Shown piece after piece: positions 24,942 through 62,448 of a DNA stretch of 64,000 nucleotides. This DNA is from Clostridia bacterium. GTDB taxonomy: Bacteria > Bacillota > Clostridia > Christensenellales > Aristaeellaceae. Made by a program: the position numbers and the translations under genes. The stretch is taken from NCBI GenBank assembly GCA_017936375.1, contig JAGBFR010000025.1, positions 22,718 through 86,717 of the forward strand. The letters are read 5' to 3'. The notes below the pieces were generated by a model. It did no database searches, had not been told where the DNA came from, and worked only from the letters and a program-made list of their open reading frames with translations. Positions within the stretch are counted from its first letter, which is position 1. Every line of letters begins with the position of its first letter.

Positions 24942-24961
24942 TGGACAAAGGAGGAAAATGC

Positions 24962-29450: not shown

Positions 29451-29526
29451 TGGGGAACCATGCGATAAAATGAATGTACCATCTACATGCACGGCGCTTC
29501 GTTGTGGCGTTATCTCTCAATTTGAG
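29443..29526 (+). promoter_or_regulatory. CRISPR leader with promoter and leader-end motif
   Basis: TTGAAT at 29443-29448 (overlapping the csn2 stop) and TAAAAT at 29466-29471 are spaced by 17 bases. Transcription would start near 29478, about 50 bases before the first repeat. The last seven leader bases, ATTTGAG at 29520-29526, equal the leader-anchoring sequence described for type II-A arrays of streptococci. Confidence 0.75.
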
Positions 29527-34889: not shown

Positions 34890-34963
34890 GATGGGATATG
34901 GATGCCGCTCGCCGCCGCCAGAGGATGGGCAGCATTTCACAACGACAAACAGGAGGAATCCCA

Positions 34964-35908: not shown

Positions 35909-35938
35909 TGAAAAGCACAACTGGAAGGAGGAACGGCA

Positions 35939-43437: not shown

Positions 43438-43914
43438 TTGCAGGAAGATATCGAAAACAGAACAGTGAGCATGGCCGTCAGCGGCAGCAAGTTCACAGGA
43501 AGGATGCTCAAGGATGCGATCACCAAGCTGCTGGCGCACCAGAAGAATCCCAAAGTCGCAAAGGACGTCACGCCGCATGGCAAACAGACAGTCAGGCAGC
43601 TGGCGGCGCAGAATCAGGGCATGACGAGCATCGAGATCAAGGACAAAAGCATGAAGGACTTTGAAAGGATTGCCCGCAAGTACGGTGTGGATTTCGCGGT
43701 AAAGAAGGTGAAGGGGGACGATCCCAAGTTCTACGTGTTCTTCAAGGCGAAGGATGCAGATGCGCTGACCGCCGCCTTTGAAGAGTACACAAAAAAGCGT
43801 GTACGCGATAAGAGCAAGTCGTCTGTAATCAAGACGCTGCGCAGCCTTCAGGCGATGATTGCCGCCAAGCAGATCGATCCGGTCAAAAACAAGAAGCAGG
43901 AGAGAAGCCTATGA
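43438..43914 (+). CDS. PcfB-like conjugation protein (DUF3801)
   Basis: This 158-residue protein starts at TTG 43438 behind AAAGGAGG. KFTGRMLKDAITKLLAH at the N-terminus and the middle KDFERIARKYGVDFAVKK followed by FYVFFKAKDADALTAAF are the DUF3801/PcfB pattern. In pCF10, PcfB is a relaxosome accessory factor that helps dock the relaxase-DNA complex on the VirD4-type receptor. Its end overlaps the coupling-protein start by four bases, as usual for this pair. Confidence 0.88.
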   Translation: MQEDIENRTVSMAVSGSKFTGRMLKDAITKLLAHQKNPKVAKDVTPHGKQTVRQLAAQNQGMTSIEIKDKSMKDFERIARKYGVDFAVKKVKGDDPKFYVFFKAKDADALTAAFEEYTKKRVRDKSKSSVIKTLRSLQAMIAAKQIDPVKNKKQERSL

Positions 43915-44447
43915 ATGTGAAGAAGCGGCTGATTCTGTATCTTCCGTATCTGGTGATCGGGCTGTATGCCGGCAAGCTGCCGCAGGCGTGGCGAATGGCG
44001 GCAGGAGCCAATGCATCTGAAAAGCTGCTCAACATCATGGGCGGCATGGAGCAGGCGTTTGCCTCCCCGCTGCCCAGCTTCTATCTGCCGGATCTGCTGA
44101 TTGGCCTGATGCTCGGCGCGGCACTCCGTCTGGCTGTCTATCTTAAGGGCAAGAACACGAAGAAATACCGGCATAATCAGGAACACGGCTCTGCACGCTG
44201 GGGGAATCAGACGGACATTGCGCCGTATATCGATCCGGTGTTTGAAAACAACGTGATCCTGACGCAGACGGAAAGGCTGACAATGAACAACCGGCCCAAA
44301 GATCCCAAAACGGCGAGGAATAAGAACGTGCTGATCATTGGCGGCTCCGGCAGCGGCAAGACGCGCTTCTGGCTCAAGCCGAACCTCATGCAGTGCCATT
44401 CCAGCTACGTCGTCACCGATCCCAAGGTCTATAATACAGATGGATAG
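43911..44447 (+). pseudogene. VirD4/TraG-type coupling protein, cut after Walker A
   Basis: The frame gives 178 residues, against about 600 for the family. Two N-terminal membrane segments, the HGSARWGNQTDI motif and Walker A GGSGSGKT (144-151) are intact. The native sequence continues to HSSYVVTDPK (K172) and is then replaced by six foreign residues and a stop. Walker B and the all-alpha domain are missing. The break coincides with the left end of a serine-recombinase element, so the other part should lie beyond its right end. Conjugation through this receptor should be blocked while the insert is present. Confidence 0.88.
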
Positions 44448-44511
44448 AAAAAAGTAGCGTGTTGCATACAGAAACAGACGAAAAATGTCCTGATGAAGGG
44501 AGGTGTAAATT

Positions 44512-46917: not shown

Positions 46918-47315
46918 AAGAAAGCAATTCCTGTACCTATAAAATCAGAATCAACTATATTCGCGTTGGCGATTACTATGTTCCAGACCTTGCGCTTCCC
47001 AAGAGTGAAGCCTATTCTCTCGGAAAATATGGCCGCATGCGTGAGCGCCATTTGAAAGAGAAGCATCCTGTGCTGTACAATGTACTTATGCTTTCCGGTA
47101 AGCTTCAGCTTCATCTGCGAGAGATTGACGAAGCCGCCTGCAAACGCATGGAGATGATGATGCCGCAGCTCATGCAAGCTGCTGGCGTGACCGAAGAACT
47201 GAAAGCAGCCGATCCCTTGCGCTGGGCAGGACTGATGAATACGCTGAAAGCGCAGGCGGAAGAAATAATTCTGACCGAATTGATTTATACCGAGGAACAG
47301 GAGGCAGCTCTATGA
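46914..47315 (+). CDS. tnpV: Transposon-encoded protein TnpV
   Basis: This 133-residue protein matches TnpV of Tn4451-like elements: YYVPDLALP, SLGKYGRMRERHLKE, LREIDEAA, GVTEELKAADPLRWAGLMN and the end EEIILTELIY. The role of TnpV is not established; it is not needed for excision by the serine recombinase in Tn4451. It overlaps the recombinase stop by four bases (ATGA) and the next gene by four bases, so the three are translated from one message. Confidence 0.9.
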   Translation: MKESNSCTYKIRINYIRVGDYYVPDLALPKSEAYSLGKYGRMRERHLKEKHPVLYNVLMLSGKLQLHLREIDEAACKRMEMMMPQLMQAAGVTEELKAADPLRWAGLMNTLKAQAEEIILTELIYTEEQEAAL

Positions 47316-48128: not shown

Positions 48129-49448
48129 TTATTCTGATTTTTTGGCGTTCTTCAGGAACGGCAGCACGACTTTGGCATGGAACTCATTGTCCTCGGTACG
48201 GAACTCCGCGCGTCCTTCAGCCCGTTCAGCAATGGCTTCGATGCTGTGCAGGCCGATGCCATGTAATCCCGGTTCGTTCTTTTTCTTAGAAGTGAGGAAT
48301 AGTCCTTTTTTCGGAACAAGCGTGGACGGTTCGCACGGGTTTGTGCAATAAACGTAGAACATGTCCCACGAACGGGAGAATGTGAGATGGATCAGCGGAT
48401 TTGCAGGAGGTTCTGCGATGCGCTGGATACCTTCAATCGCGTTGTCAAGCAGATTGCCGAGGATTGCGCAGAAGTCTGTGGTGGTAATCGGCAGGTTTGC
48501 AAGTGGATAAGGCGTGAGCTTGAATTCAATTCCTTTTTCACGCATAATGCGGCGCTTAACTGTGAGTAGAGCATCCACTTCCGGAGAACCGGTTATGATC
48601 ATATCCTCATCGGCGGCTTCTTTGGTGATGGAGTCAAGATATTCCTTTGCCGTGGAACTGCTGCTGCTGACGAGTTGTGTCAGCGTCTGCAGATGATGCT
48701 TGTAGTCGTGCTGGCGCGCGGTCAGGGTTTCATACATCTGCGAAAGCTCGTGCTGATGCTGCTTTGTCAAGCTGAGCATCGTGATTTCGGTTTGTAAACG
48801 GTTTTTGCGTTCAGTATCAAAGGAAATAATACGGAAAAGAAGGAAGGACATTATCGTAATAGCAATCATGCCCAGACACGCCAATAAGAAGGGGAGTTTG
48901 ACAGCAGTTCCTATTTCATTAAATATGGTAAACAGGGATTCCACTACTACAAATGCAAAACCTAAAATGAGAATAAATGCAATGTAAGAGGAAGTGCCGG
49001 GCGGTGGGCAGATTCTTTTAAGGCGAATGATGCTCTTCAGCACTATAAATAGTATGATATTTACTGTTACAATGCAGAAGAAGCGTTCCATATACTGCAG
49101 GGGTAGACGATAGTGAAGGACTGCGGGAACCAGCTCAAAGATGGGCAGTAGCATTGTTGGTACTATACTGAAAACCATAATTAGGACGACTAACCAATAT
49201 ATGATAGATATCTTTTTTTCGGAAGAAAAGAGAAAAGCGTAGATTATGGGAAAAGCGAAAAGAAGATAATCTACGTGAAGCATATTGCCGAAAAAAATAA
49301 AATAGCTTAGGAATCCTGCGCAGGAGCAAACAAGAAGCACATCGGCGATCGGGTGCTTTTTTTCGTATGTGAAGCATTGCTTGACATACATAAGAAGCAG
49401 GTATCCCTGAAAAATGTTGATTGCAATCTCAAACGCCGTCCAGATCAT
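48129..49448 (-). CDS. AgrC-like GHKL sensor histidine kinase
   Basis: This 439-residue protein has six or seven N-terminal membrane segments (residues 5-208), a short coiled coil, the H-box ARQHDYKHHLQTL (His247) and a GHKL ATPase domain with LGNLLDNAIEG and GLHGIGLHSIEAIAE. This is the layout of peptide-sensing kinases of the AgrC/ComD class. Its start lies 20 bases inside the end of the response-regulator gene. No agrB or agrD gene is visible, so the signal is unknown; it could be an exogenous peptide or a product of the divergent operon. Confidence 0.88.
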   Translation of the reverse strand: MIWTAFEIAINIFQGYLLLMYVKQCFTYEKKHPIADVLLVCSCAGFLSYFIFFGNMLHVDYLLFAFPIIYAFLFSSEKKISIIYWLVVLIMVFSIVPTMLLPIFELVPAVLHYRLPLQYMERFFCIVTVNIILFIVLKSIIRLKRICPPPGTSSYIAFILILGFAFVVVESLFTIFNEIGTAVKLPFLLACLGMIAITIMSFLLFRIISFDTERKNRLQTEITMLSLTKQHQHELSQMYETLTARQHDYKHHLQTLTQLVSSSSSTAKEYLDSITKEAADEDMIITGSPEVDALLTVKRRIMREKGIEFKLTPYPLANLPITTTDFCAILGNLLDNAIEGIQRIAEPPANPLIHLTFSRSWDMFYVYCTNPCEPSTLVPKKGLFLTSKKKNEPGLHGIGLHSIEAIAERAEGRAEFRTEDNEFHAKVVLPFLKNAKKSE

Positions 49449-50178
49449 ATTTTACATGTCCTCCTTGGTGATAGCGGTCAAAGATTTCCTCGACTTCAGC
49501 GCTGTATGTTCTGGAGATCGGAATGTTCATATCGTTTGATAGCGTACACTCCGTCCTCGTCAGCATCCGTATATGGGCAATGTTGACGATATAGCTGCGA
49601 TGGCAGAGGATAAAGAGGTTTTCTGGCAGACTGCTTTGGATATCTGTCAGCTTGGCATTGATGCGGAGCGGTTCGTCGCTGAGCGTTGTATAGAAAAGCA
49701 GACTTCGCAGACGCGCTTCGATGCAGCGGATTTCGATATGGCGCAGAACGTATCGCTTTCCGGCAGAAAAGAGCGTCAGCGCATGGTCGTTCCGGATGGC
49801 AAGCCGGTTATAGACGTAGCTGCAGCAGTAGTTAATATCCTCCTGCGTGACGGGCTTCTTGAGGTATCGGAGTGCATTGACGGTGTATCCTTCAAAGACA
49901 TATTCGCTGTAGTTCGTGCAGAATACGATGGTCATGTCCAGATGCGCTTCGCGGATCTTGCGCGCCAGCTCGACGCCGTTCATTTCTCCGGGAATCTCTA
50001 TATCGACGAAGAGCAGATCGACCTCGGCTCCGTGCTCCAGATGATCAAGCAGATCTTCGGAGGAAGAGAACACGGACAGCTCAATATCCTCGTGATCGCT
50101 GGCGGCTTTCCAGCTTCCGATTGCCTCGACAATCTCCTTCTGATACATTTGCTCATCTTCGCAAATGACGATCTTCAA
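49429..50178 (-). CDS. LytTR-family response regulator (AgrA-like)
   Basis: This 249-residue protein has a receiver domain (CEDE acidic pocket at 7-9, phosphoacceptor Asp59 in LLFVDIE, LKKP Lys near 112) and a C-terminal LytTR DNA-binding domain (ENLFILCHRSYIVNIAHI). LytTR proteins bind repeated sites of about 9 bases upstream of target promoters and activate transcription. It is the first gene of the leftward operon and is divergent from the secreted-protein operon, its likely target. Confidence 0.9.
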   Translation of the reverse strand: MKIVICEDEQMYQKEIVEAIGSWKAASDHEDIELSVFSSSEDLLDHLEHGAEVDLLFVDIEIPGEMNGVELARKIREAHLDMTIVFCTNYSEYVFEGYTVNALRYLKKPVTQEDINYCCSYVYNRLAIRNDHALTLFSAGKRYVLRHIEIRCIEARLRSLLFYTTLSDEPLRINAKLTDIQSSLPENLFILCHRSYIVNIAHIRMLTRTECTLSNDMNIPISRTYSAEVEEIFDRYHQGGHVKYDLDGV

Positions 50179-50282: not shown

Positions 50283-50378
50283 AAAAAAGTTTTGAAAAGA
50301 GGAAAGCGCTGCATTTCATTACAAAAAAGTTGCGCTTCATGCTTTTGGAAACTTTTCGAATGGAAAGCCGATTAGAAT
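50283..50378 (+). promoter_or_regulatory. Candidate LytTR operator and activated promoter
   Basis: AAAAAAGTT occurs at 50283-50291 and again at 50323-50331, exactly 40 bases apart, and the inverted AAACTTTT at 50349-50356. A -10 element TAGAAT lies at 50373-50378; its expected -35 place (50350-50355, AACTTT) is far from consensus and is overlapped by the inverted site. This is the arrangement expected of an activator-dependent promoter. Control by the adjacent regulator is inference. Confidence 0.5.
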
Positions 50379-50427
50379 AAACTTGCCACATTGGAGAAGC
50401 AGCCGATTGGCGAGTTAGGAGGTGCTG

Positions 50428-50667
50428 ATGTTGAATCCCCTGCGAAAAGAGAAAGTGACTACAGAAGAATATGATCGAGATGCGCTTGATGAGGTGATCC
50501 GGAAGGAACTGCGCAAAGGCGTCGAGCAGCTTGATTTGCCGCTGCGTGCGCACGACAGGTTCTTTGGATGGCTTGAAGCTGAAGAACAGAAAAAGCAGAA
50601 AGCAAATAGAGGCTTCCTGTGGCGGCTGGCTGATGGGATCAGGAATCTGTTTTACAAGAAGATGTGA
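50428..50667 (+). CDS. Small charged cytoplasmic protein, first gene of the cargo operon
   Basis: This 79-residue protein (MLNPLRKEKVTTEEYDRD at the start) is rich in Lys, Arg and Glu and ends in an amphipathic or weakly hydrophobic helix, GFLWRLADGIRNLFYKK, that could touch the membrane. AGGAGG lies just before ATG 50428. I do not recognise it. A 28-base piece of this gene recurs at 53704-53731, which shows that the gene was once duplicated with its neighbours. Confidence 0.65.
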   Translation: MLNPLRKEKVTTEEYDRDALDEVIRKELRKGVEQLDLPLRAHDRFFGWLEAEEQKKQKANRGFLWRLADGIRNLFYKKM

Positions 50668-50683
50668 ACGAGGAGGAAACATA

Positions 50684-51139
50684 ATGAAAATGAAGATTAC
50701 AATGCTGCTTGCGCTCATTATCCTCTGTGCTTGCACTGCGGCATCCGCGCAGGAATACTATACGCTGCCGGAGATTCGGGAGCAAGCGGCTGTTGGGTGG
50801 CATGAGACGTATACCGATAAATATGGACGAACGATTCCTGTTGATCTTGAGATTGATGTGTTTGGTGAGGATGTTGCACCGGTTCTGAAAGTAGGAATTG
50901 CACCTTACGAGAAATATCGAGTTAAGGAGAATAATCCATTTGAGTCGGATAGAAGCATTGAGAAATCGGGTGGGAAACGCACTTTTGTCGTGCGCCTGAG
51001 TGGACAAAAGATAGATTTAGATAAAGCATATGGAATTGACTATGAGAATGACTTGACTGTGCGGGAAGCATATGGCTTTGTGCGCAAGGAAGATATCGTT
51101 GTGGGTATTTCGCGGACAGATGCCAGATACAAGAATTGA
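50684..51139 (+). CDS. Secreted EYYTLPE-family protein, short copy
   Basis: This 151-residue protein has a signal peptide (LLALIILCACTAASA) and the family start EYYTLPEIREQ, then WHETYTDKYGR and a VDLEIDVFGED strand. It matches the first 140 or so residues of the full-length copies downstream (351-359 residues) and then ends early. The C-terminal half with the INAQTG signature is absent. It may be a truncated paralogue or a working short form. ATG 50684 follows GAGGAGG. Confidence 0.7.
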   Translation: MKMKITMLLALIILCACTAASAQEYYTLPEIREQAAVGWHETYTDKYGRTIPVDLEIDVFGEDVAPVLKVGIAPYEKYRVKENNPFESDRSIEKSGGKRTFVVRLSGQKIDLDKAYGIDYENDLTVREAYGFVRKEDIVVGISRTDARYKN

Positions 51140-51175
51140 TTTGCGTAAAAGCGGAATCTGCAAAGGAATCGGATC

Positions 51176-52387
51176 ATGAAATCGGTAAGAAGCTTAATTG
51201 GCGTACTTCTGGTTACCCTCTTTCTTTATCCACTTGGTGCGTTGAGCGAAATCATTACGGACAGGCAGACGTGGGAGAAAACAAATCTGCTCATCTCAGA
51301 TTCCTATTGCACATCAAATGGTTCATTTGTAGTGTCGGGATATCGAAATGAACAGGATGTATCTATTGCTAACGGTCTGGTCAGATCCGTCACAGAGAGC
51401 AGCTTCGTTTGGGATGACGATAAAACGATACCGACCAGCGTGGTTGAGTGCTATTCGGAATCGGGTGAATTACGTTGGTCTTGGAAGGATGAGGCTGAAA
51501 TGCCAAACGTGATGACCGTTCTAGGTGAGTTTCCGGATAGCAGGATTCTGATAAAAGCTATTGCAGTTGATCAATGGTGGGAATTGGGAGAGAAGCACAA
51601 GTGTTTCTTTCTGATCGATGAAAAAGGAAAGGGCATACCGCTTCCTCTCGAATATCAGATTCTCGAACAGGAAGCTTTTTTCTTAACTGATGACGGCATA
51701 ATGATCCAGCGGAAAGGACAGACGGGCTCCTTTATATATTACACACATGAACAAGATGCTCTGACAGAAGTGTGGTCTGTATCCTATACGGAGCTTGATG
51801 GGTTATGGGGAAATCAGATGATCGCTGTGCCAGGCGGATTTGTTTTCAGCGGCTTGGATATTCGTGAGGAAAATGGTTATCAGGGTGCGGTTTTTATGCT
51901 GGGAAAAAACGGAGAACTGAAGTGGAAATATACGACCGGCACAAAGCTTTCGATGATTTATGACGCCGCATTACTTGAAAACCAGGTACTGTGCGGTGGC
52001 GTAGAGACGTCATTTCTCCCGGATGGAAGCGTAAAGCAAAGAGCGGTGCTATTTGGTTTGGATGTTTTCAGTGGAGAACGCACGAGCGAATATGCGGAAT
52101 GCGCAAGCGGTGTTACATTAATCAATGAAATTGAGGTCGTGGACGATGGAAAAGAGGTTATCCTGTATGGTCAAAGTCGGGACGAGATGGGAAAAACACT
52201 GCTGATTACAGATCGATTGCTTAATACAATGGAGGAAATCTCTTTCAATCCAGAGGGGTACTTTGTTGAACAGCCTCGTATTCTACGGCAAAACGATCAG
52301 GATTATTCGATACTGTACTCGGTGTATTATTATGAGTCAAAGCAGAATGATGTTGAACGGATTCAAATTGAGAGGATTGCTTCTTGA
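51176..52387 (+). CDS. Secreted protein, possible beta-propeller
   Basis: This 403-residue protein has a signal peptide (LLVTLFLYPLGALS). The mature part is a series of beta strands with repeated (G/D)-x-L-x-W-x-(W/Y) turns (GELRWSWKDE, GELKWKYTTG) and short hydrophobic strands, suggesting a PQQ- or YncE-like propeller. No enzyme motif is visible. It lies between the short and the remnant EYYTLPE copies, so it may have entered with the neighbouring two genes. Confidence 0.6.
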   Translation: MKSVRSLIGVLLVTLFLYPLGALSEIITDRQTWEKTNLLISDSYCTSNGSFVVSGYRNEQDVSIANGLVRSVTESSFVWDDDKTIPTSVVECYSESGELRWSWKDEAEMPNVMTVLGEFPDSRILIKAIAVDQWWELGEKHKCFFLIDEKGKGIPLPLEYQILEQEAFFLTDDGIMIQRKGQTGSFIYYTHEQDALTEVWSVSYTELDGLWGNQMIAVPGGFVFSGLDIREENGYQGAVFMLGKNGELKWKYTTGTKLSMIYDAALLENQVLCGGVETSFLPDGSVKQRAVLFGLDVFSGERTSEYAECASGVTLINEIEVVDDGKEVILYGQSRDEMGKTLLITDRLLNTMEEISFNPEGYFVEQPRILRQNDQDYSILYSVYYYESKQNDVERIQIERIAS

Positions 52388-52442
52388 GTTGGGATTATGC
52401 CGGTTGATAGCAAGTTGACATTATAGATAAGGAGGGGGCTTA

Positions 52443-53639
52443 GTGCATAAATTACTTAGATGCGGTGCACTTATTGTTGCGGTTCTTCTGATCTTCAGCC
52501 AAATCGCGATGGCAGATAGAGATGTGCTTTTTCCGATATCTCAGAGCAAACTAAATGTTGATGAAGTGAAAACGGTTTTTATCGAACATTTTGCAAGAAG
52601 ATGCAATCTGCCTTGGGCAGAAGTTGAAAAAGCATTCGAGGCAAAGGAAGCTAAGGACGGTCTGCAATTTGGTTTGTTTGGTTATGGCTATCTTCCTGAT
52701 GCGAGTACTACCCCAGTATGGCAGGCTCATCTTCGGCTTCATGGAGGAGTTCATTATGCGCTTCTCAATGCTGAAGGAGAAATTCTATATTGGCAAAGCC
52801 ATGGTACTGAGCATTACAGAAATGAACCGGATGTATGGGAAACTGCTGTGACTTCTACGCCTCTCAAAACGGATGCTTCGGAAGATCAGATTTTGTCTGA
52901 TGTAAAACTGCGTTTGATGGAAAAAGCAGGATACTCGAAAACTGAAATTGAAGACTTTGACTATCGCATGCGATTTGTCTATGAGAAACACTTTAACGAA
53001 GGGAACATTCCGGTGTGGCTGACCTATGTATATGATGCCAACATACTCATCTATAAGCAGGTAAACGGATATGACGGTTCATTCATGTGCTTGAATACAC
53101 CTGAAGAGGATTTCGGCGAATACAGAACGAATCTCCCTTCTTTTATCGATACGATGAACTTTCCGTATTCTGACTGGTGGGGAGATACGATGACCATCGA
53201 AGAAAAAGCCATGCAAGCAGAATACTGGCGTCCTGCTGTCGAGCAATGGCTCAAGGATTATCCATATTCAGAAGAGAGCCTTGGCTTGGTCTACGATGTC
53301 ACACTCCATCAGACTTTTGGTGTCCCCGACGATGAAGCTATCACGCAGCGTGAAGCAGAGCAAATCGCAAGCGATTATGCTTCTCATTTGGGATTCAGTG
53401 ATCTCTTTTTTGAACAGCGAAAGTGTAGGGCAAATTATCTGGTGACTGATCCAGAAAAGCCAATCTGGAGAATTTTGGTCAGAACTCCAGAGATTTCAAT
53501 GGAGAAATCAAAGAAATACTGGGGAGTAGACGAACTCCTTTTCAGAGAGTATGTGGTTGAAATCGATGCATACACAGGAGAGGTGGTTTTTGCAACTATC
53601 GTTGATGTTGATACGCCTAGGTACTTGTGGCAATATTGA
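52443..53639 (+). CDS. Secreted PepSY/YcdB-like protein
   Basis: This 398-residue protein starts at GTG 52443 behind GGAGGGGG and has a signal peptide ending near QIAMA. Two halves with the form (A/E)-x-x-I-A-x-x-Y-(A)-x-x-x-G followed by strands and ending YVVEIDAYTGEVVFA resemble PepSY/YcdB repeats, which are often linked to inhibition of extracellular proteases or to wall-associated lipoproteins. The match is by pattern only. Confidence 0.55.
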   Translation: MHKLLRCGALIVAVLLIFSQIAMADRDVLFPISQSKLNVDEVKTVFIEHFARRCNLPWAEVEKAFEAKEAKDGLQFGLFGYGYLPDASTTPVWQAHLRLHGGVHYALLNAEGEILYWQSHGTEHYRNEPDVWETAVTSTPLKTDASEDQILSDVKLRLMEKAGYSKTEIEDFDYRMRFVYEKHFNEGNIPVWLTYVYDANILIYKQVNGYDGSFMCLNTPEEDFGEYRTNLPSFIDTMNFPYSDWWGDTMTIEEKAMQAEYWRPAVEQWLKDYPYSEESLGLVYDVTLHQTFGVPDDEAITQREAEQIASDYASHLGFSDLFFEQRKCRANYLVTDPEKPIWRILVRTPEISMEKSKKYWGVDELLFREYVVEIDAYTGEVVFATIVDVDTPRYLWQY

Positions 53640-53776
53640 TTAATTTGGATCGTTTGCTTGGAATGACAGAGTAGCTTTTTTCAGTCCGGAGGAATATTGG
53701 GTTGAATATGGTCGAGATGCGCTTGATGAGGCGACAGCTGAAAAAGAGAGAGTATATATAGGAGGGAAATGTAATT
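53640..53776 (+). pseudogene. Remnant of a duplicated copy of the 50428 gene
   Basis: Bases 53704-53731 match 50467-50494 at 27 of 28 positions (GAATATG to CTTGATGAGG). The frame around it reads EYGRDALDEA in place of EEYDRDALDEV. The rest of the gene is lost. A ribosome binding site for the next gene follows. Confidence 0.6.
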
Positions 53777-54964
53777 ATGAAAAAGACAAAGACACTATTT
53801 GCCATCGTGATATTGCTTCTTTCTTCTGCCCTCCATGGAGTGGCAGAGAATGATAGTGTGCTGTATATTCGGGGTGTCATGGATGTTACTCACATTGATG
53901 GCGACTTTGAGGTTCAAAGCGATAGCAAAATTGATCGTCATATTGCCTCTGCAATAAATGCATTAGATGTGCGCAAGGCGATTGAATCGGGTGATACAAC
54001 TGATTTGTTTCATATACCGCTGGATTCGGATGTGATTGAACTTATGCATGATGGATTAATTGTTCCGCTTGGATTATCAGATGCTCTGAGTGCAGATGTG
54101 CTGGAGATGACACCGGCTGTGAAGGAAGCGTTATTTGATAATGGCGTACTTTACGCTGTACCTTCGGTGATGCTTGCGAAAGTCTGGAAAGGAGAAATCG
54201 AGATTCCAGAAACATATACAGAGTTTCTGAATTATACCGACAGTTTAGCTATTGCATGGGGCGATGAGAGTATTTGGTCGAAGAGAGATTATGTAAACGC
54301 ACTGTTGGAAACGTTTTTTTCTGAATCTATAAGGAATAACGGAAAGATTGATTTCTACTCGGAAGCGTTTGTGGAGCTATTGAAAATACTGAAGAAAGTA
54401 AGGCTGCCGTTAGAGTTGAATTCTGATTGTATTGCGGTAATAAATCCTGCTGAGATTATTGATCTTGGCGATGCTTTCACAGGCGCTTTGCTCAAAAATA
54501 CTGGAAAAACTGGCGATCTGGGAACAAATAGCAAGGATGATCCGCAGTGGATGCTTCCACCAACGGTGATGAAAGAGGCTGAACCTTCTGTACCTGTAAG
54601 GATGTATGTCTACATAGTCAACGTACATGCCCAGAATATAGATAAAGCCTTACAATACCTTGAATATGTGGTGTCTCATCGTGATTCTGGCGATGAAGGA
54701 CTGTTAAAGCCCGATAATGCAGAAGCAGTTTTCGATTCTGAATCAAATGTATGGTCTGTTACGGAAAAGAAACTGATGGCATATAAAGAAAACTATCTTC
54801 CATACCTGGATATGAGAATGCATCCGTTATTCTCTTTTTCTGCAAAGCAAGAGGGAGGCGCCTATTTCAGAATGTTTGAAATTGTTATGGAGTATGTGGA
54901 AGGAAATGCCGAACTTGATATATGCCAATCAAGGCTAGAGCACATTATGGAAGATTTTAAATGA
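53777..54964 (+). CDS. Secreted protein, solute-binding-like, unknown function
   Basis: This 395-residue protein has a signal peptide (LFAIVILLLSSALHGVA). The pattern of the middle part, with VIELMHDGLIVPLG, LFDNGVLYAVPSVML and YTEFLNYTDSLAI, resembles extracellular solute-binding proteins of ABC importers, but the lipobox Cys is missing and no importer genes lie nearby. AGGAGGG precedes the ATG. The gene ends next to a leftover 3' end of an EYYTLPE gene. Confidence 0.55.
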   Translation: MKKTKTLFAIVILLLSSALHGVAENDSVLYIRGVMDVTHIDGDFEVQSDSKIDRHIASAINALDVRKAIESGDTTDLFHIPLDSDVIELMHDGLIVPLGLSDALSADVLEMTPAVKEALFDNGVLYAVPSVMLAKVWKGEIEIPETYTEFLNYTDSLAIAWGDESIWSKRDYVNALLETFFSESIRNNGKIDFYSEAFVELLKILKKVRLPLELNSDCIAVINPAEIIDLGDAFTGALLKNTGKTGDLGTNSKDDPQWMLPPTVMKEAEPSVPVRMYVYIVNVHAQNIDKALQYLEYVVSHRDSGDEGLLKPDNAEAVFDSESNVWSVTEKKLMAYKENYLPYLDMRMHPLFSFSAKQEGGAYFRMFEIVMEYVEGNAELDICQSRLEHIMEDFK

Positions 54965-54993
54965 AACGCCAGACTCTCGTTTTTTCATGCAAG

Positions 54994-55077
54994 ATGCTGG
55001 ACTGGTTTGACACGAGCTATCATGGCCGCGGAGATGGACGTTACAAGGGCTTCATTCCATGGGACAAGGTACAGTAA
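54994..55077 (+). pseudogene. Orphan 3' end of an EYYTLPE-family gene
   Basis: These 84 bases encode MLDWFDTSYHGRGDGRYKG and a final FIPWDKVQ, and end at TAA. They equal the C-terminus of the full copies at 56158 and 57250 almost base for base. Nothing before them belongs to the family, so this is the stump of a deleted or recombined copy. Confidence 0.85.
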
Positions 55078-55089
55078 GGAGGTACAACC

Positions 55090-56145
55090 ATGAAAAAGAG
55101 ATTTGCGATTCTGCTTGCGCTGCTGCTCATGCTCGTCTGTGCTGCTGCTTCTGCGCAGGAATACTACACACTGCCGGAGATCCGGGAGCAAGCGGCTGCG
55201 GGGTGGCATGAGACGTATACCGACAAATATGGTCGGGAGACTATTGTCGATATTGATGTTCAGGTCTTCGGAGAGGATAAAGCTCCCGTTCTCAAGGTTG
55301 GGCTCCCGGATTACGTGGAGTATACGCATCTTGAAAACAATCCTTATCTTTCGGTGACGAATGTAAAAAGTAAGGGCGGTCAGCGCACCTATATTTATGA
55401 TTGGTATGGCAAAGAAATTGATCTGGATACCGCATATGGTGCTGACTATGGAAATAACCTGACGCTGAGAGAGGCGTATAGCTTTGTTGGAGAAAAACTG
55501 GAAGAACAAGGCATATCGCCAGATGAGTTTATTCTGAATCAGCCGCGTACATTCCAGATGCTTTGCAACACCAGCCAAAAAACTGGAGAAGTCCTGTCGC
55601 CGGCGTTCTATCTTGTCCGCTTCTGGCCTAAACTGCATGAATTGCCGCTTCTTACGCATGTCATGCGAAGCTTTGTAAAGCCAGGTGGCCCGGATCATGA
55701 TCCTGAAATGCATTTCATGATGCGTAATGAAAATGAGTATGTGATATATGTTTGCACCTTTGTTGAGAAGGAGATGCTTGAGGCGGATATTCCGCTGTGT
55801 TCTCTCGAAAAAGTGATTGAGAGCGTAGAGCGTGAAATCAAAGATGGTCATATTCAGGAAGTGAGTTCTCTGCGATTCGGATACTCTATCTACAATGATC
55901 CGAATATTAAAAGCAAAAGGCCCGTTGCAATCTATGATGTTGATTACTTTTATGCAGTTCCTTCTTGGGTGCTGGAGTGTAAGTATGTAGAGAATGCTAA
56001 AGATACCTTCAACGAAAATACACAAACCATGTATATCACCATCAATGCGCAGACGGGTAAGATGATCGATCCGATGGATAAGAGCAAGAATAAAGCGGGA
56101 GATGGCGATTACAAGGGCTTCATCCCCTGGGATAAGGTGCAGTAA
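55090..56145 (+). CDS. Secreted EYYTLPE-family protein, full copy 2
   Basis: This 351-residue protein has a signal peptide cleaved after ASA, giving QEYYTLPEIREQ. A beta-rich N-terminal half (VDIDVQVFGED, GKEIDLDTAYGADYGNNLTLREAY) is followed by a second half with TGEVLSPAFYLVRFWP, IPLCSLEKVIESVE, SLRFGYSIYNDP, YAVPSWVLECKY and INAQTGKMIDP. No known domain is recognised. It is about half identical to copies 3 and 4. GGAGG lies at the end of the previous stump, the same spacer as before each later copy. Confidence 0.75.
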   Translation: MKKRFAILLALLLMLVCAAASAQEYYTLPEIREQAAAGWHETYTDKYGRETIVDIDVQVFGEDKAPVLKVGLPDYVEYTHLENNPYLSVTNVKSKGGQRTYIYDWYGKEIDLDTAYGADYGNNLTLREAYSFVGEKLEEQGISPDEFILNQPRTFQMLCNTSQKTGEVLSPAFYLVRFWPKLHELPLLTHVMRSFVKPGGPDHDPEMHFMMRNENEYVIYVCTFVEKEMLEADIPLCSLEKVIESVEREIKDGHIQEVSSLRFGYSIYNDPNIKSKRPVAIYDVDYFYAVPSWVLECKYVENAKDTFNENTQTMYITINAQTGKMIDPMDKSKNKAGDGDYKGFIPWDKVQ

Positions 56146-56157
56146 GGAGGTACAATC

Positions 56158-57237
56158 ATGAAAAAGAGTTTTGCGATTCTTCTCGCACTGCTGCTTGCGC
56201 TCGTCATGCTCTGTGCTTGCACTGCTGCATCCGCAGAGGAATACTACACCTTGCCGGAGATCCGGGAACAGGCGGCTGCCGGGTGGCATGAGACGTATAC
56301 CGATAAATATGGCAGAACCCGACAGGTGGACATTGACATTGAGGTGTTCGGCGAGGAGCGGGCGCCAGTCATCAGGGCCTGCTGGGATGATCCGTATAAG
56401 CTCCTCTTTTATGGCGGAAAGGATCCTTATGGTGAGATCACTGAGGAAGTAGATAAAGGAAGAGGCGAAAGGGTCTTCTTGTATAGCAGTGTGAGAGGGA
56501 TGACGGTTGACCTCGATCAAAAGTATGGGGAGGCGTATGGAAACGATCTGACGCCACGAGAGGTCTATGCGTATATTGAACAATGCTTGCAGGAGCGAGA
56601 TGTTGATCAGGACTATATTTGGGAGCGTCCCAATACATTCAGTCTCGTGTACGGTCAAGATAAAAAATCTGGAGAAGTACTTGTCCCACCGGTTTACTAT
56701 ATATGGCTTTGGCCACGGGAGCAGGGTTTGCCCATCATGGGACATGTGGGTTCTTCGTTTCAACGGAATATGAATGAGCCGTTTTCGTTTCCAAGGCTCA
56801 TGATCTGGATGCGGGATCGAGAGAATTATAGCTGTGCTGTAACCGATTTCGATGTACAGGAGGTTCTCGCAGAGGATATTCCGCTGTGCGCCGTAGACAA
56901 GGTGATTGAGGGCGCGCGGAAGATGATTGAGGATGGGCATATTTGTCAAGTGCTGTCTCTGCGGTTTGGCTATGTTGTGTATACTGATCCTGATTATCAA
57001 TGGAAAAGAGGAGAGACAGCATACGATATGCCTGCGGGCTATCTCGTGCCTTCGTGGGTACTTGAGTGTTACATGCTGAATAATCCAAAGGTGGACAAAC
57101 TGAGCGAACATGCAGGTGTCAGAACGTTGGTCATCAATGCACAGACAGGTGAGATGCTGGACTGGTTTGACACGAGCTATCATGGCCGCGGAGATGGACG
57201 TTACAAGGGTTTTGTTTCTTGGGATGAAGTACAGTAA
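56158..57237 (+). CDS. Secreted EYYTLPE-family protein, full copy 3
   Basis: This 359-residue protein has a signal peptide with LCACTAASA and mature start EEYYTLPEIREQ. It shares long, nearly identical DNA stretches with copy 4 (for example the segment around 56459-56540 and the last 250 bases), so the two arose by a recent tandem duplication. SFPRLMIWMRD, DGHICQVLSLRFGYVVY, YLVPSWVLECYML and VINAQTGEMLDWF are shared. Each copy is separated by a 12-base spacer carrying GGAGG. Confidence 0.75.
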   Translation: MKKSFAILLALLLALVMLCACTAASAEEYYTLPEIREQAAAGWHETYTDKYGRTRQVDIDIEVFGEERAPVIRACWDDPYKLLFYGGKDPYGEITEEVDKGRGERVFLYSSVRGMTVDLDQKYGEAYGNDLTPREVYAYIEQCLQERDVDQDYIWERPNTFSLVYGQDKKSGEVLVPPVYYIWLWPREQGLPIMGHVGSSFQRNMNEPFSFPRLMIWMRDRENYSCAVTDFDVQEVLAEDIPLCAVDKVIEGARKMIEDGHICQVLSLRFGYVVYTDPDYQWKRGETAYDMPAGYLVPSWVLECYMLNNPKVDKLSEHAGVRTLVINAQTGEMLDWFDTSYHGRGDGRYKGFVSWDEVQ

Positions 57238-57249
57238 GGAGGTACAACC

Positions 57250-58317
57250 ATGAAAAAGAGATTTGCGATTCTTCTCGCTCTGATACTCATACTCGTTTGC
57301 GCTGTAGCATCTGCGCAGGAATACTACACGCTGCCGGAGATTCGGGAGCAGGCGGCTGCTGGGTGGCATGAGACGTATACCGACAAATATGGCAGAACGC
57401 GTCAGGTGGACATTGACATTGAGGTGTTCGGCGAGGAGCAGGCGCCAGTCATCAAGGCCTGCTGGGATGATCCGTATAAGCTCCGCTTTCAGGGTGAAAA
57501 GAATCCCTATGGAGAGATCACTGAGGAAGTAGATAAAGGAAGAGGCGAATATGTCTTCTTGTATAGCAGCGTGAGAGGGATGACGGTTGACCTCGATCAA
57601 AAGTATGGGGAGGCGTATGGAAACGATTTGACGCCACGAGAGGTCTATACGTTTATGAAACAACGCTTGCAGGAGCAAGGTGTTGATCAGGACTATATTT
57701 GGGAGCGACCATATACATTCAGTCTCGTGTACGGTCAACATAAAAAATCTGGAGAGGTACTTGTCCCGCCGGTTTACTATATATGGCTTTGGCCACAGGA
57801 GCAGGGTTTGCCCATCATGGGACATGTGGGTCATTCGTTTCAACGTAATATTATTGAGCCGTTTTCGTTTCCAAGGCTCATGATCTGGATGCGGGATCAA
57901 GAGAATTATTCCTGTGCTGTAACCGATTACGACGTACAGGAGGTTCTCGCAGAGGATATTCCGCTGTGCCCCGTAGATAAGGTGATTGAGGGCGCGCGGA
58001 AGATGATTGAGGATGGGCATATCTGTCAAGTGCTGTCTCTGCGGTTTGGTTATGTTGTGTACACTGATCCGGATTATCAAAGGAAAAGAGGAGAGACAGC
58101 ATACGATATGCCTGCGGGCTATCTCGTGCCGTCGTGGATCCTTGAGTGTTACATGCTGAATAATCCAAAGGTGGACAAACTGAGCGAACATGCAGGTGTC
58201 AGAACGTTGGTCATCAATGCACAGACAGGTGAGATGCTGGACTGGTTTGACACGAGCTATCATGGACGCGGCGATGGACGCTACAAGGGCTTTGTTTCTT
58301 GGGATGATGTGCAATAA
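57250..58317 (+). CDS. Secreted EYYTLPE-family protein, full copy 4
   Basis: This 355-residue protein has a signal peptide cleaved after ASA. It is a near twin of copy 3, with differences clustered in the signal peptide and in the region 57480-57560. It is the last copy before the ABC transporter genes and lacks the GGAGGTACAA-type spacer at its end. The conserved VPSW(V/I)LECY and INAQTGEMLDW block lies at about residues 300-335. Confidence 0.75.
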   Translation: MKKRFAILLALILILVCAVASAQEYYTLPEIREQAAAGWHETYTDKYGRTRQVDIDIEVFGEEQAPVIKACWDDPYKLRFQGEKNPYGEITEEVDKGRGEYVFLYSSVRGMTVDLDQKYGEAYGNDLTPREVYTFMKQRLQEQGVDQDYIWERPYTFSLVYGQHKKSGEVLVPPVYYIWLWPQEQGLPIMGHVGHSFQRNIIEPFSFPRLMIWMRDQENYSCAVTDYDVQEVLAEDIPLCPVDKVIEGARKMIEDGHICQVLSLRFGYVVYTDPDYQRKRGETAYDMPAGYLVPSWILECYMLNNPKVDKLSEHAGVRTLVINAQTGEMLDWFDTSYHGRGDGRYKGFVSWDDVQ

Positions 58318-58338
58318 AGCATTTTGAAGGGTGATAAC

Positions 58339-59133
58339 ATGTTGGAAGAACTCAAAAAAGCATTTCGCGCCAGACAATTCTGGGTGTCGTTTGGTACTTG
58401 CTTTGTGGTTCTGCTGGGTTATTCGCTGGTGTATTGGCTTGGAAGCATCAGCGCTGGAGAATGGATTGAGTATCGTGAGAGCGCGCTTCATCTCGCGCTT
58501 GGTGGGATTTACTTCGGTGGCTTCATGCTGCTGTTCCCATTCTGCATAGCATTTTCGTATGCAACCGGTCAGGTAGACGAAATGCGCTCCGGCATGATGC
58601 AGTGGCGTACATTCCGAAGTTCCATCTGGAAGTATGTCAAAACAAAAGTTGGCGCGGGCATGATCCTTTCTGCTTGCGCAGCGGTCGTTCCGTTTATCCT
58701 GCACGCGATCCTGTGGTATCATATTGCATTGCCGATTGAGCCGGAAACCTATCCGAATCATGCTATCTATTTCAGCGAGCGGTTTATTTATCACGACGTC
58801 TATGCCCTATGGCATGGTTTGCCGCTGTATGTAGGCACAGCAATCGGTATGGCGTTCACGGCAGCCATGTGGTCGGTGATCGCGCTTGCAGTGTCGATCT
58901 GGATTCCGGACAAGCTGCTTGTCATCGCAATTCCGGCAGCGATCTTCTACATCTGGAATGCGGATATTTCATTCTATGTGTTTGACATTCCGCTGCCGAG
59001 TCCGACGAGCTTGTTCAACGATGGCCTGTCTGTGCAGAAAGCTGTAACCGCATTGATCATGTATACGATTGCCTTTGCGATCAGCGTGGGTGTTTTCTAC
59101 ATGGGATGCAGAAAGAGGTGTCAGGATGTCTGA
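58339..59133 (+). CDS. ABC exporter permease 1
   Basis: This 264-residue membrane protein has about six hydrophobic segments and a cytoplasmic start, MLEELKKAFRARQFW, as in ABC-2-type permeases. ATG 58339 has GAAGGG upstream. It overlaps permease 2 by eight bases. With the next two genes it forms a complete exporter of two different permeases and one ATPase, a design common for export of or self-protection from peptides. Confidence 0.75.
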   Translation: MLEELKKAFRARQFWVSFGTCFVVLLGYSLVYWLGSISAGEWIEYRESALHLALGGIYFGGFMLLFPFCIAFSYATGQVDEMRSGMMQWRTFRSSIWKYVKTKVGAGMILSACAAVVPFILHAILWYHIALPIEPETYPNHAIYFSERFIYHDVYALWHGLPLYVGTAIGMAFTAAMWSVIALAVSIWIPDKLLVIAIPAAIFYIWNADISFYVFDIPLPSPTSLFNDGLSVQKAVTALIMYTIAFAISVGVFYMGCRKRCQDV

Positions 59134-59983
59134 GAAGCAAAAGCCGACGAACTGGATGTGTGCTGCGCTGTATGGGCATTTCAGCCTCTGGGCGCATTCG
59201 CTGAGAACCATCCTGATGCTCATCTTTGCGCTCATGATGAACTATATGCTCACAAGGAGCGAAGGCGCACGAATTATGGGAATGGGATATGAGGTACATA
59301 TGGGAGAAATGGTTTTCTCCTATCTGCATCAGGGATTCAATATGCTCATGGCGAGCTTTGCGTTCTTTGTGATGATGTCGGAAATCCCGAAGCATGTACC
59401 GTATCAGAAGTATTCGACATTCCGCATGACCAGACGTAGGTGGCTGGCATCGTTGGTGGTGTTTTGTATGCTGATTGTCCTGCTATATCTTGCGCTGATG
59501 ACCATCTCTTCCGCACTTTTTTCGTTGCCTTATGCGTCATCTGGCAGCGGCTGGAGCGATCTTGAACGGCTGGCTGCCGACCCGGATTATATTTACGAAA
59601 TCTCATATATTCCGGGATATGTTGTGAGCAGTCTTTCACCGCTTACGGCAAGCGTAATGGCGGGCACGATTCTGTTCCTGTTCTGGACGGCAATGGCTTT
59701 CATCATTCTGCTGTCCTCGCTGTACCGTGCGCCGAATGTGGGCATCGTCATCTGCGTTGCGACCATTACTGGCAGTATCGTAATTCTGGTGGAGAGCATT
59801 CCCGGCCTTAAGCTTCTTGATTCGTTTTCGACGATGGCCAGAATTGCATCGAAGTTCTATGAACATGAATTACTGGCGGTTGGACTGGCGATAGTCGGCT
59901 GGCTGCTGCTTAATGGACTGCTGGTGGTCCTGATGGATCGCCGTGTACAGCGGATGGAGATTGAGTTTTCGGGAAAGGAGTAA
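59126..59983 (+). CDS. ABC exporter permease 2
   Basis: This 285-residue membrane protein has about six hydrophobic segments and a large loop after the third or fourth. It begins MSEKQKPTNWMCAALYG and is unlike permease 1 in sequence, so the two probably form a heterodimer. The ATPase gene starts at the base after its stop codon. Confidence 0.75.
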   Translation: MSEKQKPTNWMCAALYGHFSLWAHSLRTILMLIFALMMNYMLTRSEGARIMGMGYEVHMGEMVFSYLHQGFNMLMASFAFFVMMSEIPKHVPYQKYSTFRMTRRRWLASLVVFCMLIVLLYLALMTISSALFSLPYASSGSGWSDLERLAADPDYIYEISYIPGYVVSSLSPLTASVMAGTILFLFWTAMAFIILLSSLYRAPNVGIVICVATITGSIVILVESIPGLKLLDSFSTMARIASKFYEHELLAVGLAIVGWLLLNGLLVVLMDRRVQRMEIEFSGKE

Positions 59984-60685
59984 ATGCAAATGATTACAGT
60001 AGAGAATCTGAGCAAGTCTTACGGCAGCAATTCTGTGCTGAAAAACATTTCTGTGAACTTCCATGAGGGAGAGATTTGCGGCCTCGTCGGCGCGAATGGC
60101 TGCGGCAAGACAACGCTGATGCGCTGCATCTGCGGCTTTTCTCAGCCGACGTCGGGCTATGTGGTCGTCAACGGATCGCTGATCGGCGGCAAGTCGGCAA
60201 TCAAGAGGAATCCGGAACTTGCCGGAACGAATCCCAGCATTTTTAGCCGCGTGGCAGACTTTGCGCCCAATACCGGCGTGATCATCGAGACGCCGGGCTT
60301 CCTGCCGCATGAGACGGGCCTTCAGAACCTTATGCTCCTTGCGGCAATGTCCGGCAGAGCGGATAAGGCAAGAGCAAGGCGTGCGATGATCGAGCTGGGG
60401 CTTGATCCGGACGAAAAGAAACAGGTCTGGAAGTATTCGCTTGGGCAGCGTCAGCGGCTGGGTTTTGCGCAGGCGTTCATGGAAGATCCGGACGTCTTGA
60501 TTCTGGACGAGCCGTTCAATGCTATGGATAAGGCGTCCATGGAAGAGGTACATGACCTGCTTCAGCGCTTCAAGGCGGAGAATAAGATCGTTCTGCTGGC
60601 GAGTCATAGCGCGGAAGATATCGCCAGAGCGTGCGATGTGATCTTTGAGATGGAGGACGGCAATCTGCGTATGATCAGAGAATGA
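59984..60685 (+). CDS. ABC exporter ATP-binding protein
   Basis: This 233-residue ATPase has Walker A GANGCGKTT (36-44), the signature SLGQRQRLGFAQ (a LSGGQ variant), Walker B VLILDEPFNAMD and the switch His in LLASHS. It is of the short exporter type with no fused membrane domain. GGAG precedes the ATG. It energises the two upstream permeases. Confidence 0.92.
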   Translation: MQMITVENLSKSYGSNSVLKNISVNFHEGEICGLVGANGCGKTTLMRCICGFSQPTSGYVVVNGSLIGGKSAIKRNPELAGTNPSIFSRVADFAPNTGVIIETPGFLPHETGLQNLMLLAAMSGRADKARARRAMIELGLDPDEKKQVWKYSLGQRQRLGFAQAFMEDPDVLILDEPFNAMDKASMEEVHDLLQRFKAENKIVLLASHSAEDIARACDVIFEMEDGNLRMIRE

Positions 60686-60725
60686 AAAATCCTGTGATTC
60701 TTAATTGAAAGAGGAGGAAACTAGA

Positions 60726-61907
60726 ATGAAACAACTATTCTCTCTTTGCCTGGCACTACTCATGCTATCTTCAGTAGCATCTGCCGAGAATATGAAATCG
60801 ATTACTGAAGTTAAGAGCAATACTCCAGATAGATGGACAAAGACCTACGAAACACAGTGGCGCAATGTTGATATCGACGTCGGCATTGACATTCCGAATG
60901 TGGAGGCTTTTCCAATTATCCGGGTAAAGTATGCAGATCCCGTTCCGGAAAACATGTATGGTTCTTTTCAAGTGAAAGAGAATGGGAGAAATGATTTCGA
61001 TCAAGGAATGTTTCGAGGAGAAAAGGGTAGTTTTGTTGGAAGTCTAAAAGATTGGAAGAATGTGCGAGCAAGAGAAACGATTGTGTTTACTGAAAAACCT
61101 TTAGCTGACTATCCTGATAATACAGGTGTAGAACTATCTGAGATTATGAAACCATTTACCGGTGAGATCCCAGAGATTACAGCAGAAAACTTGTCGCTTA
61201 CAGCACAAGAGGCCTATGGAAAAGCAATTAGTGAACTGGAAAGCGTACTAGGAACAAGAGTTGACAGCCTCCGTCTTACAGGTTTTCAGGTCGTTAGCTG
61301 CTACTATAAATACCATGAAACTGAAAATGGACTTGAGTGGAAGGAACCTCAGAACAAAACAGGATACTACCTTTTTGAACTTGCGCAGGTTTACGAAGGA
61401 ATCGATTATCATTCAGGTGACCATTTTAAATCAAGTGTTCAATACGATGGACCGAATTTTGAAAGAGGCAGTGTTAGTCTTATAACTGACGGAAATGGTT
61501 ATACATTGGTCGTATCAGGTCTGTATGATTTGATTGATAAACCCTATCCGGATGTCCCGCTTGTTTCATTCGATAAGATAATCGAAGAATTAGAAGGAGA
61601 TATCATGTCAGGTAATATCCGAAGGATTGATAAAGTAAAACTGTGTTATTACGGTTATCATGATCCGAATGACAATTCCGTTGTTTGGTTGCTTCCAACG
61701 TGGATTGTTGAATCAGTCTATTGTGAGAAACCTGATGAAGAGGTTGCAGAGAATACATACAACAAAATGGGCGAACTAATTAATGTGACGCAAAAACGCG
61801 CGTATGTGATTAATGCTCAAACAGGGGAAATGCTGGATAGGAATAGTAAGTCAAAAGAACGTAGAAATGTTCCGGGCATCATTACATGGGAGACAACTGT
61901 GCAGTGA
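60726..61907 (+). CDS. Secreted protein, distant EYYTLPE-family relative
   Basis: This 393-residue protein has a signal peptide (LCLALLMLSSVASA). The start of the mature part differs, but DRWTKTYETQWRNVDIDVGI aligns with WHETYTDKYGR-VDIDI, and the C-terminal half shares VPLVSFDKIIEELEGDI, VKLCYYGYHDPND, WLLPTWIVESVY and YVINAQTGEMLDR with the tandem copies. It sits after the ABC genes. ATG 60726 has GAGGAGG upstream; an in-frame TTG at 60705 does not. Confidence 0.7.
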   Translation: MKQLFSLCLALLMLSSVASAENMKSITEVKSNTPDRWTKTYETQWRNVDIDVGIDIPNVEAFPIIRVKYADPVPENMYGSFQVKENGRNDFDQGMFRGEKGSFVGSLKDWKNVRARETIVFTEKPLADYPDNTGVELSEIMKPFTGEIPEITAENLSLTAQEAYGKAISELESVLGTRVDSLRLTGFQVVSCYYKYHETENGLEWKEPQNKTGYYLFELAQVYEGIDYHSGDHFKSSVQYDGPNFERGSVSLITDGNGYTLVVSGLYDLIDKPYPDVPLVSFDKIIEELEGDIMSGNIRRIDKVKLCYYGYHDPNDNSVVWLLPTWIVESVYCEKPDEEVAENTYNKMGELINVTQKRAYVINAQTGEMLDRNSKSKERRNVPGIITWETTVQ

Positions 61908-61944
61908 GATAAAGGAATCGAACATAGGATGAGGCACACATACG

Positions 61945-62448
61945 ATGAGTGACCTTTCGATTTACAAAAACGCCTATGAAGACGGCGTTTCGCTCATGGT
62001 TGAGCAATACAGTGGTATGCTGGTAGGACTCTGTACCCGACTTCTTCAGGATTACTATCTTGCGCAGGATGCTGTGCAGGAGACATTTCTGAAAGCCTAT
62101 CTGAAGCGCGACAGCTTCAGAGGCGAAAAGACGAGTAGCGAGAAAGCTTGGTTGATTTCGATTGCTGTAAACGTATGCCGTGATCAGCAGAGATCAAGGT
62201 GGTCGCGCATGATTGAAAGCAGGATCTCTGTGGATACGCTGAACATGGTGAGTATGGAAACGGCTGAAGATCAGGTACTGCTCAATGCGGTTGTCGATTC
62301 TCTGCCTGAGAAATACCGTAATGTGCTGTATATGTACTATTATCAGGACATGACGGCGCAGGAAATCGCATATGTGGTGAAAAAATCGACCTCGGTTGTT
62401 TATCGTCGAATCAGAGAAGCCAGACAAGTGCTGATGGAGCTTATGTAG
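61945..62448 (+). CDS. ECF-type RNA polymerase sigma factor
   Basis: This 167-residue protein has sigma region 2 (LCTRLLQDYYLAQDAVQETFLKAY) and region 4 (LPEKYRNVLYMYYYQDMTAQEIAYVVKKSTSVVYRRI). It is the last gene of the cargo operon. No anti-sigma gene follows; the only membrane or charged partners are the operon's own products. It could amplify transcription of the operon or of wall-stress genes; the target promoter is not known. Confidence 0.88.
   Translation: MSDLSIYKNAYEDGVSLMVEQYSGMLVGLCTRLLQDYYLAQDAVQETFLKAYLKRDSFRGEKTSSEKAWLISIAVNVCRDQQRSRWSRMIESRISVDTLNMVSMETAEDQVLLNAVVDSLPEKYRNVLYMYYYQDMTAQEIAYVVKKSTSVVYRRIREARQVLMELM

Follow-up and report, generated by a model that had tools for sequence, protein, structure and literature searches.

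Tandem DUF6034-like secreted proteins beside an ABC transporter, a LytTR pair and an ECF sigma factor in a Clostridia genome: a possible mobile sensing-and-immunity module

The window considered here is a 64,000-nucleotide stretch of contig JAGBFR010000025.1 from a Clostridia bacterium of the Aristaeellaceae (Christensenellales; GenBank assembly GCA_017936375.1, 81% complete), and all coordinates below are positions within this 64-kb window. Near the right end of the contig, it carries a gene cluster that combines tandem copies of a secreted protein family, here called the EYYTLPE family or simply the family, with an ATP-binding cassette (ABC) transporter, a LytTR two-component pair and an extracytoplasmic function (ECF) sigma factor. 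An earlier note on this DNA had described a divergent LytTR two-component system flanking a rightward operon, and both of its genes were found on the minus strand, just left of the stretch that the note had delimited. They encode an AgrC-like sensor kinase with a GHKL ATPase and a SpoOB-type helical domain (48129-49448; Pfam HATPase_c_5, E 5.9e-20; SPOB_a, E 5.4e-07; seven hydrophobic peaks) and a LytTR response regulator (49429-50178; Response_reg, E 3.8e-15; LytTR, E 4.1e-15). The plus strand holds a run of genes from an 81-amino acid (aa) protein through the sigma factor, and on it the other components named in the note (a small charged protein, three secreted proteins outside the family, two permeases, an ATPase, a distant relative of the family and a sigma factor) were all located.

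The charged 81-aa protein (50422-50667) lacks a hydrophobic segment and has no relative in the loci fetched for comparison, to which L-numbers such as L040 and L009 refer below. It is followed by an N-terminal piece of a first family copy (50684-51139; 59% match to residues 1-143 of copy 2) and then by the three other secreted proteins: a possible but weakly assigned beta-propeller with a single N-terminal hydrophobic segment (51176-52387; Pfam Beta-prop_CGLA, E 9.1e-4, below the cut-off); a protein with a weakly PepSY-like C terminus (52443-53639; PepSY, E 0.15, below the cut-off), for which 21 of 149 other genomes of the taxonomic family hold matches, many of them partial; and a protein akin to the C-terminal, solute-binding-like part of 714-746-aa neighbors at other family loci (53777-54964; hhalign probability 96%, E 3.1e-09). 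We considered whether 51176-52387 and 53777-54964 might be the two halves of such a neighbor, and this held for 53777-54964 alone. Next come a 29-residue C-terminal remnant of a family copy (54988-55074; 66% identical to copy 2 over residues 323-351 of the latter); the intact copies 2 (55090-56145, with an N-terminal signal segment), 3 (56158-57237) and 4 (57250-58317, 91% identical to copy 3); ABC permeases 1 (58339-59133) and 2 (59126-59983), each of which aligns with permeases of L040, L046, L048 and L058; an ABC ATPase with the motif IIETPGFLP (59984-60685); a distant family member with 28% identity (60726-61907; DUF6034, E 0.0039, below the cut-off, for a longer reading from 60705); and the ECF sigma factor (61945-62448; Sigma70_r2, E 3.2e-16; Sigma70_r4_2, E 4e-09). 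A long minus-strand open reading frame (ORF) at 54985-58794 overlaps genes of this run and is read as antisense to them rather than as a gene.

The repeats in this region go far beyond chance, with 247 nt common to four copies (67-72% against the reference copy) and 300 nt common to two copies at 91%. The earlier note counted four tandem versions and one distant relative; the distant relative stands, whereas only three tandem copies, those starting at 55090, 56158 and 57250, are intact, and the first is broken. Copy 1 is split into its N-terminal piece and the C-terminal remnant with the three unrelated secreted genes between them, an arrangement that reads as an insertion into, or a recombination across, that copy. 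The base composition lends this reading weak support, because the G+C content of the three genes (0.41-0.44) differs from that of copies 3 and 4 (0.49) and is approached by that of copy 2 (0.455) and of the distant copy (0.40). A 31-bp stretch at 53704-53734, ahead of the gene at 53777, is 94% identical to 50467-50497 inside the 81-aa gene and is perhaps the remnant of a duplicated operon start. Elsewhere, a 5.4-kb contig (L041) is filled by five tandem copies of the EYYTLPE/DYYTLPE branch, the last of which reaches the contig end.

When searched as single sequences against Pfam, the tandem copies gave nothing better than E 0.2, and to this extent the earlier statement that the family has no recognized domain is borne out. 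At the profile level it no longer holds: 13 of 43 aligned family members matched DUF6034 (PF19499) at E 0.01 or better (best 7.8e-08), and a profile-profile comparison of the window family with 22 DUF6034 proteins using hhalign gave a probability of 99.5 and an E of 3.7e-23, with homology spanning about 200 C-terminal residues. The Pfam gathering cut-off of DUF6034 (27 bits) was not reached, the best window member scoring 16.6 bits. The aligned DUF6034 proteins have a lipoprotein-like N terminus, with an invariant Cys and then Thr-Pro, and this Cys-x-x-Thr-Pro start is not seen in the window copies. Given the homology and the lipobox counts reported below, the window family is best described as a secreted and for the most part non-lipidated offshoot of a larger family that lacks an assigned function. 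Pfam states no function for DUF6034, and therefore the homology, clear as it is, does not refute the earlier note, which had named kinship with a characterized family of unrelated function as contrary evidence; we found no paper on DUF6034 in the open-licence literature, to which our search was limited. DUF6034 itself was matched in 29 of 200 genomes of the order (27 above the cut-off) and in 12 of 291 genomes of the class (7 above the cut-off), and the window-type family in 22 of 297 genomes of the order, weak partial matches included, or, with a larger profile, in 33 of 150 genomes of the taxonomic family. DUF6034 genes resemble those of the window in their setting as well, with tandem arrays beside a two-permease ABC set and an ECF sigma gene (L098), beside M56 genes (L095, L096) or beside kinase/LytTR genes (L101).

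The strongest clue to function is that the domain occurs fused to membrane proteins. An M56 (BlaR1) domain and a family or DUF6034 domain share one open frame in 14 ORFs at 11 loci, a tally that is not a frequency, since 8 of the 11 loci were fetched for their long frames (one of the ORFs is short, at 478 aa). At L049, M56 is joined to the window-family domain directly ahead of permease 1, and in the other 13 fusions the partner is DUF6034; a Penicillinase_R repressor gene precedes the fusion of L095, and a scan of four M56 fusions at E 0.05 listed no penicillin-binding (transpeptidase) family. At L142, L143 and L147, the gene after an ECF sigma gene encodes a protein in which an N-terminal head and a single hydrophobic segment precede the family domain. 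With an outer position in two such kinds of membrane protein, the domain is most simply read as a sensing domain.

We surveyed the neighborhoods of 48 other family loci, excluding the window and the hand-picked DUF6034 loci; some of the 48 are close relatives of one another and some are cut by contig ends. An ECF sigma gene lies on the same strand within 4 kb at 29 of them, and an anti-sigma gene, detected with profiles built from DUF4179- and DUF4367-type neighbors, lies near the family at 16. ABC permeases occur within 1.5 kb at eight loci, a 714-746-aa type neighbor at seven, more than one family copy at 14, and the LytTR pair at only one (L040). Within the same loci, sigma genes are about six times denser close to the family (33 in 297 kb within 4 kb) than farther off (5 in 275 kb), and where at least 3.5 kb of upstream sequence exists, 21 of 30 loci have a sigma, LytTR, M56 or fused regulator. 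Fourteen loci show no regulators, permeases or fusions; six of these are cut within 1.3 kb upstream (L041, L050, L052, L056, L070 and L133), and two (L064 and L145) have sigma and anti-sigma genes on the other strand. Approached from the transporter, a search with permease 1 across 297 genomes of the order gave 25 matches, and at 18 of these a family or DUF6034 gene lies no more than about 1.5 kb away (16 of 23 once two members of the query alignment are removed). The same genome has a second family locus, L009, with a sigma gene, a DUF4179 anti-sigma gene and two family genes, which ends at a contig edge, and the hand-picked DUF6034 locus L101 joins three DUF6034 genes to an ABC set of the same type and a divergent kinase/regulator pair. 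Since permeases are found at 8, the LytTR pair at 1 and no linked feature at 14 of the 48 loci, the whole gene set is not a widely conserved unit. The expectation in the earlier note that family members keep to this neighborhood therefore fails for the exact set and survives in the recurrent linkage to ECF sigma genes.

The complete core set was found at just one other locus, L040, from a water-deer gut assembly, which has the same order of kinase, regulator, three family genes (one of EYYTLPE type and two longer), both permeases, ATPase and sigma gene, and lacks the 81-aa protein, the three-gene insert and the distant copy. Identity between the two loci is 80-88% for the permeases and ATPase, 74% for the regulator and 61% for the kinase, family protein and sigma factor; the exporter is conserved while the secreted protein and the kinase diverge. 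In support of the mobile-element setting proposed earlier, element genes adjoin the module in the window and similar ones adjoin it in L040, whose contig carries relatives of the window's ParA (76%), DUF6017 protein (44%), TnpV (52%), sigma-like regulator (40%) and serine recombinase (33%). Relative to the module, the recombinase is on the right in L040 and on the left in the window, so the elements are similar in kind and not identical. At both loci, the module is most likely carried as cargo of a mobile element. At 43911-47315, a VirD4-like ORF of only 178 aa immediately precedes the genes for a large serine recombinase and TnpV, and an element may have landed in a conjugation gene there. 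Two more sigma-region-4 proteins are encoded at the contig end (62812-63919), the second of which shares 40% identity across 143 residues with a protein adjoining the L040 module.

The control region of the operon is also shared with L040. The best ungapped match between the intergenic regions of the two loci covers 49 bp with 44 identities and holds TCAT-containing direct repeats; in both, the repeats are 21 bp apart and TAGAATA stands 61 bp after the first of them. In the window, the repeats are at 50312 and 50333 and TAGAATA at 50373, and we propose that this plus-strand site (50300-50379) is a LytTR-controlled promoter to whose repeats the regulator would bind. No anti-sigma gene was found beside the sigma gene of the window or that of L040. 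The 81-aa protein, tried in this role, showed no relation to anti-sigma factors (best E 0.49) and was set aside for want of a relative and of a hydrophobic segment, although we keep it as a possibility. An ECF promoter for the window operon was rejected, as AAAC-N15-18-CGTC occurs 16 times in the window and never just ahead of the operon. Among relatives, this pattern occurs in 7 of 27 regions upstream of sigma genes against 57 of 5400 control stretches, and its longer form AAAC-N17-CGTCT(G/T)AT stands ahead of the sigma gene in L053, L069, L073, L128, L131 and L135, at about 115 bp in five of these loci and 207 bp in L135; in these six it is likely a self-controlled ECF promoter. A dyad search of 12 regions upstream of the remaining sigma genes gave nothing clear, barring CGTCTA-like boxes in some.

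The closest NCBIfam model to the ATPase is TIGR03740, for a lantibiotic protection ATPase (E 3.5e-39), which it matches at 134.8 bits against a cut-off of 309.75. The motif ETPGFLP is shared by 11 of 13 module ATPases, the exceptions being L046 and L144, and its Glu appears to occupy the Q-loop site; replacement of the Q-loop Gln by Glu (an E-loop) we take to be a mark of LanF, having found no supporting text in the open-licence literature. Each permease shows five hydrophobic peaks on a simple scale, compared with the six helices of LanFEG and CprABC permeases. Self-immunity of a lantibiotic producer was considered and set aside on a weak negative, LanC having no match in the genome, and an anti-phage function was set aside because PADLOC at E 0.001 returned no family for nine of ten proteins scanned (copy 3, kinase, regulator and sigma factor were not among the ten) and only a generic match for the ATPase. 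The peptide-type sensing of the earlier note, taken as quorum sensing, is unsupported, with AgrB unmatched in the genome, AgrD not having been searched for. With an assembly that is 81% complete, the AgrB and LanC negatives are weak.

Several characterized systems share parts of this arrangement. LanI is a surface protein that binds a lantibiotic peptide and is paired with the three-part exporter LanFEG, and CprABC of Clostridioides difficile is a version found in a non-producer and placed under two-component control (PMC5786555, PMC4239024). Like the module, these systems have an ATPase with two permeases and an outer partner protein, and Cpr has two-component control (PMC5786555); they differ in that the window family had no match in the searches run, the ATPase falls under the NCBIfam cut-off, the genome has no LanC match, and control is by LytTR here and by ECF or M56 proteins at other family loci. 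With RsiV/RsiP-type systems, L009 and loci in relatives share an ECF sigma factor and a DUF4179 anti-sigma factor, whereas the mobile copy has a sigma gene with no detected anti-sigma gene and a LytTR pair beside the operon instead. RsiV, a DUF4179 anti-sigma factor, responds to lysozyme (PMC6066255), which fits an envelope theme. The fusions recall BlaR1/BlaI in their M56 transducer and, at one locus, an adjacent Penicillinase_R repressor, but their outer domain is DUF6034 or the window family; and the GHKL kinase and LytTR regulator recall AgrCA, but no AgrB match was obtained in the genome. Because the family domain is used in M56 proteins and in proteins at the anti-sigma position, and because the transporter has a LanFEG/Cpr-like layout, envelope protection or signaling is, of the roles suggested earlier, the best-supported class of function.

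The interpretation we favor, with a little less than even confidence, is that the cluster is a mobile module for sensing, and for immunity to, a compound that acts on the cell envelope and is probably a peptide; it would be comparable to LanI with LanFEG, with a LytTR pair in place of ECF/anti-sigma control. The AgrC-like kinase would sense the ligand or its effect, and the LytTR regulator would then bind the two direct repeats, a site kept in L040, and turn on the rightward operon. Exported family proteins would bind the ligand outside the membrane, as the use of their domain in BlaR1-type transducers and in membrane proteins at the anti-sigma position suggests, and the two-permease transporter would remove it from the membrane, a role suggested by the resemblance of the layout to LanFEG beside LanI. 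More speculatively, the terminal ECF sigma factor might relay the signal to other promoters, perhaps that of the chromosomal family locus. Several observations weigh against this interpretation. The family profile matched no solved structure (best E 0.26). By a simple pattern, 69 of 82 family ORFs lack a lipobox, unlike LanI. In the L142, L143 and L147 proteins, the head region gave no match to an anti-sigma model, so that calling them anti-sigma-like depends on position. No Pfam model fits the permeases at better than E 0.08, and the ATPase scores far below its NCBIfam cut-off, which makes a lantibiotic exporter a guess from gene layout. At 40 of the 48 family loci, some of them cut by contig ends, there are no ABC permeases within 1.5 kb, and the family therefore also occurs without them; L044, L066, L067, L072, L140 and L141 have more than 8 kb upstream and still no linked regulators or permeases.

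A rival interpretation makes the family a regulatory accessory and nothing else: its secreted members would pair in solution with the outer domains of anti-sigma or M56 proteins, or act as decoys for them, and tune an ECF regulon, and the transporter would serve another envelope task. We judge this unlikely, if deserving of serious attention: ECF sigma genes accompany 29 of the 48 loci and permeases only eight, membrane proteins encoded after sigma genes carry the domain, and a likely ECF promoter precedes the sigma gene in six loci, but 18 of the 25 permease matches adjoin family or DUF6034 genes, and since neither the window sigma gene nor that of L040 was found to have an anti-sigma gene next to it, the partner of a decoy would have to lie elsewhere (L009 has one).

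Tandem, diverging paralogs beside an ABC transporter could alternatively be its substrates, acting outside the cell as effectors of competition or as signals, a possibility that the earlier note had allowed. This seems improbable, as the N terminus of most family proteins is an ordinary signal-like segment, their domain also serves in membrane transducers, and 40 of the 48 loci have no permeases within 1.5 kb. We are slightly more skeptical still of an uptake set for a nutrient or glycan in which the solute-binding-like protein at 53777-54964 feeds the transporter. In favor of such a set is the relationship of that protein to the C-terminal part of the 714-746-aa neighbors, which are seen at 7 of the 48 loci; one of these neighbors weakly matches SBP_bac_1 (E 0.002, below the cut-off). 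The three-gene block of the protein, however, is absent from L040 and sits between the pieces of a broken family copy, and the ATPase is nearest to exporter-type models.

If the sensing-and-immunity interpretation is right, a Pfam family lacking a function would gain a role in recognizing envelope-active compounds outside the cell, with the sensor identified through the fusions and the pump through the linkage. A further consequence would be that these Clostridia swap the control circuit (ECF, BlaR1-type or LytTR) of one immunity set while keeping its recognition protein and exporter, and that the set travels with serine-recombinase elements. A broader proposal, possible but on balance doubtful, is that DUF6034 and the window family form an undescribed superfamily of extracytoplasmic ligand-binding domains, which Christensenellales would plug into three chassis (ECF anti-sigma factors, BlaR1-type M56 proteins and LytTR two-component systems) and also use, beside a shared exporter, as tandem arrays of diverging receptors, soluble or lipid-anchored; this would amount to a modular antimicrobial-recognition repertoire captured by mobile elements. 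The parts are of known kinds, and neither the recognition family nor its use across three control circuits was found in the open-licence literature.

Two further features lie to the left of the module. At 34898-43381, beside mobile-element genes, are a sortase gene and a gene for a 2480-aa repeat protein with many SpaA domains. At 24926-29892, a Cas9 gene (Pfam Cas9_REC, E 4.6e-124) is followed by six direct repeats with 66-bp spacing, a short array of clustered regularly interspaced short palindromic repeats (CRISPR).

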